The notes below the pieces were generated by a model. The model worked only from the letters and a program-made list of their open reading frames with translations. It was not told where the DNA came from and searched no databases. The translations under genes and the position numbers were made by a program. A stretch of 42,648 nt of DNA. Origin: Acidimicrobiales bacterium. GTDB lineage: Bacteria; Actinomycetota; Acidimicrobiia; Acidimicrobiales; Palsa-688. Below, piece by piece: positions 1,685 to 28,852 of the stretch; positions within the stretch are counted from its first letter, which is position 1, and each line of letters opens with the position of its first letter. The stretch is from contig DASUWA010000041.1 of assembly GCA_036378675.1 (NCBI GenBank), positions 1 to 42,648 on the forward strand. The letters run 5' to 3'.

Positions 1685-1753
1685 CGATGGACTCCTTCAA
1701 CGTCGAATATCGGCGTCCCCGGGGTCTTCTTTAGAGGTACTCGATGATCCGAC

Positions 1754-27513: not shown

Positions 27514-28041
27514 GTGGCTCGACTCGAAGACGTTATGGCACCCGGCTACCTCGAGGGCCTGGGGACCTGGCCCTTGGAAGACCTTCGCGCGCGCAGAGAC
27601 GAGGCGACCGTTGTGGAGACCGGGCTTTCGTATCTTCGCCGGATCGTGCAGGGCCGGCTCGACATTCTCCTTGCCGAGCAGCGCTCACGGGAGGCTGGCG
27701 AGCAGGAGAGTCTCACGGAGCTGGTCGACCAGCTGCCGTCGATCCTGTCGGAGCACGTCCACGCGCCGGGGCTGGGCCGGCTGCCGGCGCTGATGGGGCC
27801 CGGCGAGCTCGATCCCGGACTCGAACAACGACTCGAGGAAGCGATGCCCGAGAGCCGGCTGGCCAAGGTGACCGAGGTCGAGCTGCAGGACCTTTCCGTC
27901 GGGATCAACCGCCTGGTCGAGCTCGAACGCGAGATATCCGGGCTCCGGCGGTCGGTGTTCGACGTTCTGGACCGGTTGCAGGAGGAGATCGTTCGGCGAT
28001 ACCGCACCGGCGAAGCGACGGTAGACAGCCTTCTGCCGTGA
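27514..28041 (+). CDS. rsiG: RsiG-like c-di-GMP-responsive anti-sigma factor
   Basis: 175 residues, mostly two long helices joined by a loop. The first helix contains E35-S39-R42-Q46-D50, an exact fit to the c-di-GMP-binding motif E(X)3S(X)2R(X)3Q(X)3D described for Streptomyces RsiG, which holds sigma-WhiG when bound to c-di-GMP. The second helix has E138-S142-R145-F149-D153, the same motif with Gln replaced by Phe. The two-motif layout matches the Streptomyces form, not the one-motif homodimer reported from Rubrobacter. No sigma factor or c-di-GMP enzyme is in the window. It is first of four overlapping genes with a receiver, XRE regulator and mshA. The GTG start is supported by TAGCCT; ATG 27535 is possible. 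Confidence 0.8.
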   Translation: MARLEDVMAPGYLEGLGTWPLEDLRARRDEATVVETGLSYLRRIVQGRLDILLAEQRSREAGEQESLTELVDQLPSILSEHVHAPGLGRLPALMGPGELDPGLEQRLEEAMPESRLAKVTEVELQDLSVGINRLVELEREISGLRRSVFDVLDRLQEEIVRRYRTGEATVDSLLP

Positions 28042-28406
28042 CCGGGCGGCGGCCGCGGATGGTTCTCGTTGTCGATGACGACGAGATGATCCGTAGGTTG
28101 GTAAGAGCCGTGCTGGAAGCAGACGAATTCGAGGTGGCCGAGGCGCGCGACGGGGAGTCGGCATTGACGCTCGCCTCTGAAGTTCATCCGGCCATCGTGG
28201 TGCTGGACATCATGATGCCGGGGATCGACGGAGTCGAGGTCTGCCGGAGGCTCGACCACGAAAGGGTCAAGGTCGTCGTCCTGACCGCCAGAGACGACCC
28301 GCGCTTGGAAGAGGAATGCCGAAAGGCCGGGGCCGACGCCTTCTTGACCAAGCCGTTCTCGTCGATCGAGCTGCTCGATCTGGTCGCGGAGTTGCTGGCC
28401 GCGTGA
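28038..28406 (+). CDS. Single-domain response regulator
   Basis: 122 residues, only a receiver: acidic triad Asp13-15 in VLVVDDDEMIRRLV, phospho-acceptor Asp57 in VVLDIMMPGIDG, Thr83 in VVLTARDD and Lys105 in FLTKPF. No output domain. The GTG start overlaps the TGA of the RsiG-like gene (GTGA), and its end overlaps the XRE gene in the same way. No kinase is adjacent; the double kinase at 18.7 kb lies in another operon and a link is speculative. Confidence 0.93.
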   Translation: MTGRRPRMVLVVDDDEMIRRLVRAVLEADEFEVAEARDGESALTLASEVHPAIVVLDIMMPGIDGVEVCRRLDHERVKVVVLTARDDPRLEEECRKAGADAFLTKPFSSIELLDLVAELLAA

Positions 28407-28852
28407 AGGACCTGCCCGATCCGTGGCGAGAGCTTGGGGAGTTCATCCGGGAGCAGCGCTCCGTCGCGCGGTTGTCGGTCCGGCGCCTGTCCGACATGGC
28501 AGGTATCTCCAACCCGTACTTGAGCCAGATCGAACGTGGACTGCGCAAGCCCTCGGCGGAGATCCTCCAACAGATCGCCAAAGCTCTCCGCATCTCTGCC
28601 GAGACGCTTTATGTAAGGGCAGGCATCCTTGATCCTCACGAAGGCGATGGCGACCTGAGCCGGGCGATTCTCGGCGATTCGTCGCTGACCGAGGAGCAGA
28701 AGCAGACATTGTTGAGGATCTATCTGTCATTCCGGCGCGAGAACGATGCCGGCAGGCCGCCTCCACCCGTTGACCCAGTCGTTGGCACCCCCGAGGACGC
28801 CCCTGCAACGAAGGGGGCCGAGGTGGTCGCAGAGGAGGCGGGAGCCACCTGA
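28403..28852 (+). CDS. XRE-family helix-turn-helix regulator
   Basis: 149 residues. The HTH occupies about 12-66: LGEFIREQRSVARLSVRRLSDMA, then ISNPYLSQIERG, the recognition-helix form typical of Cro/CI-type regulators, and PSAEILQQIAKALRI. After it is a short helical region (LTEEQKQTLLRIYLSFR) and an acidic proline-rich tail. The ligand and targets are unknown. The GTG start overlaps the receiver stop; its TGA overlaps the mshA ATG. Confidence 0.92.
   Translation: MKDLPDPWRELGEFIREQRSVARLSVRRLSDMAGISNPYLSQIERGLRKPSAEILQQIAKALRISAETLYVRAGILDPHEGDGDLSRAILGDSSLTEEQKQTLLRIYLSFRRENDAGRPPPPVDPVVGTPEDAPATKGAEVVAEEAGAT

Follow-up and report, generated by a model that had tools for sequence, protein, structure and literature searches.

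RsiG is an anti-sigma factor that keeps its sigma factor inactive at high levels of c-di-GMP. Among the known systems closest to the one analysed here is that of Streptomyces venezuelae (structures 6PFJ and 6PFV; Pfam family PF22802). The RsiG protein of our window, that is, of the whole 42,648-base stretch of DNA under analysis, shares with it similarity over the full length, two motifs carried on two long helices, a WhiG gene in the same genome and the best fold match; it differs in carrying Phe in place of Gln in the second motif and, as judged from promoter-like sites, in having an output that is probably type IV pili rather than sporulation. The RsiG of Rubrobacter radiotolerans (7LQ2-7LQ4) can be aligned with it in the region of the first motif (E about 0.01). 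That protein has a single motif and forms a homodimer, whereas the window RsiG has two motifs in one chain; the predicted targets of the Rubrobacter protein, as given in PMC8325347, are type IV pilus genes and c-di-GMP enzyme genes, as they are here. The same paper describes WhiG-like sigma factors of flagellar type in Actinoplanes missouriensis, which direct type IV pilus and flagellar genes. Actinoplanes is listed there as being without RsiG, so that control by c-di-GMP through the RsiG route is absent from it.

An initial annotation of this locus, made from the sequence alone, proposed that the switch was here extended to a new kind of organism. This part of the proposal is not supported, as the available text of PMC8325347, published in 2021, already records twin-motif RsiG in three of four Acidimicrobiales species. 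We did not find the His/Phe state of the second motif, or the pilus targets of Acidimicrobiales, described in that text. The presence of this kind of RsiG in Acidimicrobiales was therefore already known, and what is added in this study is conserved promoter evidence pointing to type IV pili as the output.

Contig C41, from a 97% complete Acidimicrobiales genome of 4.1 Mb, makes up the window. The rsiG gene occupies positions 27514..28041 of the forward strand, including the stop codon, and encodes 175 amino acids. It begins with GTG, a start that is supported by the identical first residues (MARLEDV) of the protein of a relative (L020). The window protein matched PF22802 (RsiG-like) in two stretches with a score of 75.1 bits (cut-off 27), and in a phmmer search its residues 15-174 aligned with RsiG from S. 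venezuelae (6PFJ; E=2.6e-14), revealing homology over the whole chain; three Rubrobacter RsiG chains followed directly after 6PFJ, with E values from 0.011 to 0.016. The structure was modelled with AlphaFold2 using an alignment of 19 family members (pLDDT 84.6, pTM 0.74). The single-chain model contains both motif-bearing long helices, at residues 21-61 and 124-165, with a poorly predicted loop between them. Comparison of the model with the PDB using Foldseek returned four chains at E<=0.001, each of them S. venezuelae RsiG, and a fifth match at E=0.21. Searches of 148 related genomes, our own included, found RsiG at E<=0.001 in 101 of them, the match in genome G113 being doubtful, and the RsiG of locus L172 (JAGWSF010000225.1) was 56% identical to that of the window. 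Given the PF22802 match, the match to S. venezuelae RsiG and the matches in 101 genomes, the window protein is a full-length, twin-motif homologue of RsiG and not a chance bearer of the motif, and the profile search, sequence comparison and fold match all uphold its original classification as an RsiG-type protein. No convincing second RsiG was found in the same genome, where two more matches had E values of 0.03 and 0.6.

The ten motif residues initially assigned were confirmed. Motif 1 (E-x3-S-x2-R-x3-Q-x3-D; residues 35-50, positions 27616..27663 of the forward strand) comprises E35, S39, R42, Q46 and D50 within predicted helix 21-61, while motif 2 (residues 138-153, positions 27925..27972 of the forward strand) comprises E138, S142, R145, F149 and D153 within predicted helix 124-165, Phe149 (27958-27960) taking the place of Gln. 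Motif 1 is exact and motif 2 is exact save for Phe149, so that the protein departs from the strict published pattern E-x3-S-x2-R-x3-[Q/H]-x3-D at one of ten positions. When all six frames of the window were searched with E-x3-S-x2-R-x3-[QHFL]-x3-D, the two matches obtained were these two motifs of RsiG.

Conservation of the motifs was assessed in an alignment of 100 RsiG sequences of the order from 99 genomes (G109 contributing two; L119 of G113, which had no match in the alignment, and two fragments from G030 were left out). In motif 1, E35 was conserved in 93 sequences, S39 and R42 in all 100, Q46 in 89 (with His in 8) and D50 in 99; in motif 2, E138, S142 and R145 were invariant and D153 was present in 95. 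Thus, at nine of the ten positions the commonest residue was kept in 89 to 100 of the 100 sequences. Position 149 was occupied by His in 64, Phe in 30, Leu in 4 and Gln in 2, and the idea that Phe is a rare change peculiar to this protein was rejected. This pattern is the reverse of that described in PMC8325347, where the Gln of motif 1 is often His in other RsiGs, as the sole exception to strong conservation; in Acidimicrobiales, Gln predominates at the first site and His or Phe at the second. A quick maximum-likelihood tree from which the column of position 149 had been left out required at least 16 changes of state there, and at least 15 when Phe was set against all other residues; support was weak for 41 of its 97 inner branches, so that both counts are rough and perhaps too high. 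The RsiGs of three loci (L036, L046 and L053) have Ala for the Glu of motif 1 and Asn for the Asp of motif 2, and WhiG is present in their genomes; predicted c-di-GMP binding may be weakened in these proteins.

In the solved complexes, according to the same part of PMC8325347, Gln stacks on guanine. Most likely, Phe149 takes this guanine-stacking place, which is held by Gln in S. venezuelae and by His in most relatives, and Phe could plausibly stack on guanine much as Gln does. The predicted binding of c-di-GMP is probably kept, since Phe and His are both common at this position and the other nine motif positions are conserved, while a change in affinity through Phe149 is possible. No link between Phe and loss of WhiG was seen, as 2 of the 12 aligned RsiGs from genomes lacking WhiG by our cut carry Phe, and by eye Phe149 was inconsistently associated with the receiver gene downstream of rsiG in the loci of relatives.

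This receiver-domain (response regulator) protein is encoded at 28038..28406 of the forward strand (PF00072, 102 bits), and its GTG start overlaps the rsiG stop codon. It is followed at 28316..28852, also on the forward strand, by an XRE-type helix-turn-helix protein (PF01381, 46.4 bits) whose start is uncertain and whose open reading frame overlaps the receiver gene. On the same strand downstream of rsiG in the loci of 99 relatives, an XRE gene was present in at least 67, an MshA-like gene in at least 77 and a receiver gene in at least 19, these counts being lower bounds because the stretches reach at most 1500 bases. In the window the receiver gene may be cotranscribed with rsiG; conceivably, its product relays a signal from a two-component system to the RsiG switch.

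The initial annotation had proposed that the genome be searched for a WhiG/FliA-type sigma factor and for c-di-GMP enzymes, and had named their absence as grounds for refuting its reading; a sigma factor of this type and the enzyme domains were both found. One sigma factor scored above the FliA/WhiG (TIGR02479) cut-off (272.8 bits, C7:138751), the next reaching 118 bits, and among solved chains its best match was S. venezuelae WhiG (E=1.5e-97), as against about 5e-48 for FliA chains. The whiG gene sits between DprA-like and RpsB-like open reading frames, named by eye. In the complex from S. venezuelae, c-di-GMP is contacted by WhiG residues K57, G61 and R62 (PMC8325347), whose counterparts in the sigma factor found here are K36, G40 and R41; in the best-scoring 30 WhiG loci of relatives, which are not a random sample, the Lys and Arg were present in all 30 and the Gly in 25, with Ser in the remaining 5. 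For the predicted c-di-GMP enzymes, 19 of 20 GGDEF domain matches and 15 of 15 EAL domain matches in the genome were above their cut-offs.

Across the 148 genomes, RsiG and WhiG occurred together in 88, RsiG only in 13, WhiG only in 5 and neither in 42 (Fisher p=7e-20, a value that ignores relatedness). Seven of the 13 RsiG-only genomes are less than 90% complete, and the RsiG match of G113 is doubtful. WhiG was scored as present by a cut of our own, at about 235 bits or more, the truncated match of G001 being counted as well. The family's own cut-off is passed in 103 of the 148 genomes, in some of which a second, weaker sigma factor also passes; such a second sigma factor of flagellar type is carried by many of the related genomes.

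Pfam searches of the window's own genome identified the type IV pilus genes for PilM, PilO, a protein with the pilin N-methylation motif, a prepilin peptidase and a T2SSF protein, together with three T2SSE ATPases carrying MshEN domains and one PilT-like T2SSE ATPase, which we take to be PilT. Four stretches chosen for their pil or GGDEF genes were scanned, without a separate control, for TAAA-N14/15/16-GCCGATAA with at most two mismatches. This yielded seven different sites, four of which precede pil or GGDEF-EAL genes. WhiG/FliA-type promoter-like sites lie 43 bp upstream of pilM (one mismatch), 7 bp upstream of pilT (two mismatches) and 6 bp upstream of a GGDEF-EAL gene (one mismatch), and a further promoter-like site lies 8 bp upstream of the possible start of a pilin-like gene (two mismatches). 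Counted over the whole genome with a spacing of 15 and no more than one mismatch, there were 5 sites against 3 in the control, so that the own genome alone proves little, and this count was rejected as stand-alone proof. The GGDEF-EAL gene was likewise discarded as a conserved target: a search of 60 further genomes found a single orthologue, with four mismatches in its best site. No flagellar-type promoter was found before rsiG or whiG, where the best candidates had five mismatches each.

Within the window, an open reading frame of 115 amino acids at 1337-1684 of the reverse strand, with no Pfam match, has a flagellar-type site (1707-1733, reverse strand, one mismatch) 22 bp upstream. Its product is 50% identical over 60 amino acids to that of a 112-amino-acid open reading frame (L165:10574-10912); this second frame, adjacent on contig C33 to a gene for a T2SSE ATPase, has no flagellar-type site itself (best four mismatches). 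The 115-residue product is possibly a small protein tied to pili.

Conservation in relatives provides stronger evidence than the sites of the own genome. A set of 60 pilM upstream regions of about 300 bases each was assembled (G060 and G068 counted twice), leaving out L229 and L240, whose matches start at a contig end, as well as L271, and also G077, the match of which runs from query residue 133. Twenty-three of the 60 contained a site with no more than two mismatches, compared with none of the 60 reversed and none of the 60 reverse-complemented sequences (Fisher p=1.7e-8); the L271 upstream region, scored separately, had five mismatches. Twenty-two of these sites came from the 50 upstream regions of WhiG-positive genomes and one from the 10 of WhiG-negative genomes (G031, 80% complete). 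The window's own family accounted for 18 sites in 23 upstream regions, each 34-57 bp before the start, as against 5 in 37 outside it.

For pilT, the 30 loci given by the search were used, in three of which (L275, L279 and L302) the extrapolated start is not a start codon. Sites with at most three mismatches, mostly two or three, occurred in 23 of the 30, compared with 3 of 30 reversed sequences, 2 of 30 reverse-complemented sequences and 11 of 98 rsiG upstream regions, the last being an order-wide control from genomes other than those of the pilT set. In 23 of the 30 loci the best site preceded the start by 4 to 9 bases, and 21 loci combined this distance with the mismatch threshold; sites so near the start codon suggest leaderless pilT transcripts. 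The p-values overstate the strength of the evidence, because neighbouring species are not independent.

Exact sites were counted over all 148 genomes, giving 49 in total: 38 against 15 in the control for the 93 WhiG-positive genomes and 11 against 15 for the 55 WhiG-negative genomes (p=0.015). Loci were available for 30 of these sites, and the open reading frames behind them were in part scanned with Pfam, 18 being judged only by eye. Six of the 30 precede genes for PilM, pilin, FlhA or PAS-GGDEF proteins identified by Pfam (L190, L195, L200, L202, L204 and L205), the PAS-GGDEF gene having its exact site precisely 7 bases upstream in three species (L202, L204 and L205). Four other scanned open reading frames are of unrelated kinds (L185, L193, L207 and L208), and two others appear by eye to be pilin-like (L182) and FlgB-like (L196), with no Pfam match for either. 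With part of the open reading frames scanned, 24 of the 30 exact sites thus do not precede a Pfam-identified pil, flagellar or GGDEF gene.

Several explanations can be weighed against these data. A loose motif combined with long helices could match by chance, and the protein might then be an unrelated coiled-coil; this reading is refuted by the family, sequence and fold matches and by the retention of both motifs across the order, and its probability is negligible. The initial annotation saw in Phe149 an altered second site, which would bind one c-di-GMP or bind more weakly and so change the switch. Phe is indeed incapable of the hydrogen bonds made by Gln, and Leu is also found at this position in 4 of 100 sequences, but the other four residues of motif 2 are conserved as described and Phe is both frequent and repeatedly changed on the tree. 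These features suggest a substitution that is tolerated or that tunes the site, not one that abolishes it, and we consider the altered switch improbable.

More deserving of attention, although still unlikely in our judgement, is an ordinary RsiG-WhiG switch with a different output, for instance flagella or a step in development. Another flagellar-type sigma factor would then use the sites in front of pilM and pilT, or these would owe their conservation to some other cause. The second, weaker sigma factor of many relatives, the exact site before flhA in one of them and an own-genome count close to control are all consistent with such an arrangement. However, the own genome has pilM and pilT sites with one sigma factor above the FliA/WhiG cut-off, and it is only in WhiG-positive genomes that exact sites outnumber those of the control. 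Because the pilM and pilT sites recur in relatives beyond the controls, the twin-motif RsiG-WhiG pair probably controls type IV pili, and the sites suggest an output of pili rather than spores.

Taking together the observed homology, motif residues, WhiG and c-di-GMP enzyme domains, RsiG/WhiG co-occurrence and conserved sites before pilM and pilT, we favour, with some confidence, the following switch. The twin-motif RsiG would act as a monomer, with Phe149 stacking at the second site. High c-di-GMP would bind and arm RsiG, which would then hold WhiG sequestered. When c-di-GMP falls, WhiG would be released, and the free sigma factor would transcribe from promoters of the type TAAA-N15/16-GCCGATAA, here predicted to drive pilM, pilT and perhaps the GGDEF-EAL enzyme gene.

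The three T2SSE ATPases bearing MshEN are encoded at L164:15904-17463 and L164:17515-19242 on the reverse strand and at L165:8821-10548 on the forward strand. MshEN is the domain through which MshE responds to c-di-GMP. Control of the Vibrio extension ATPase MshE by c-di-GMP is noted in the available part of PMC8325347. As these T2SSE ATPases carry MshEN, c-di-GMP may both repress the pilus genes and act directly on ready-made ATPases.

The published motif is too strict at its fourth position, since a search allowing Gln or His alone would miss 34 of the 100 aligned second motifs. If the favoured switch is correct, two lineages of actinobacteria whose RsiG proteins differ in architecture would share a pilus output, and the question of the first function of the switch would thereby become testable. 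We see an even chance that, more broadly, twin-motif RsiG and WhiG in Acidimicrobiales put pilus assembly through pilM, retraction through pilT and, in some species, a PAS-GGDEF protein under the control of c-di-GMP, in which case pilus control would not be confined to the single-motif RsiG of Rubrobacter and may be the older job, with sporulation in Streptomyces the derived one, and the repeated change among His, Phe and Leu at the guanine-stacking place of the second motif could set a lineage-specific c-di-GMP threshold.
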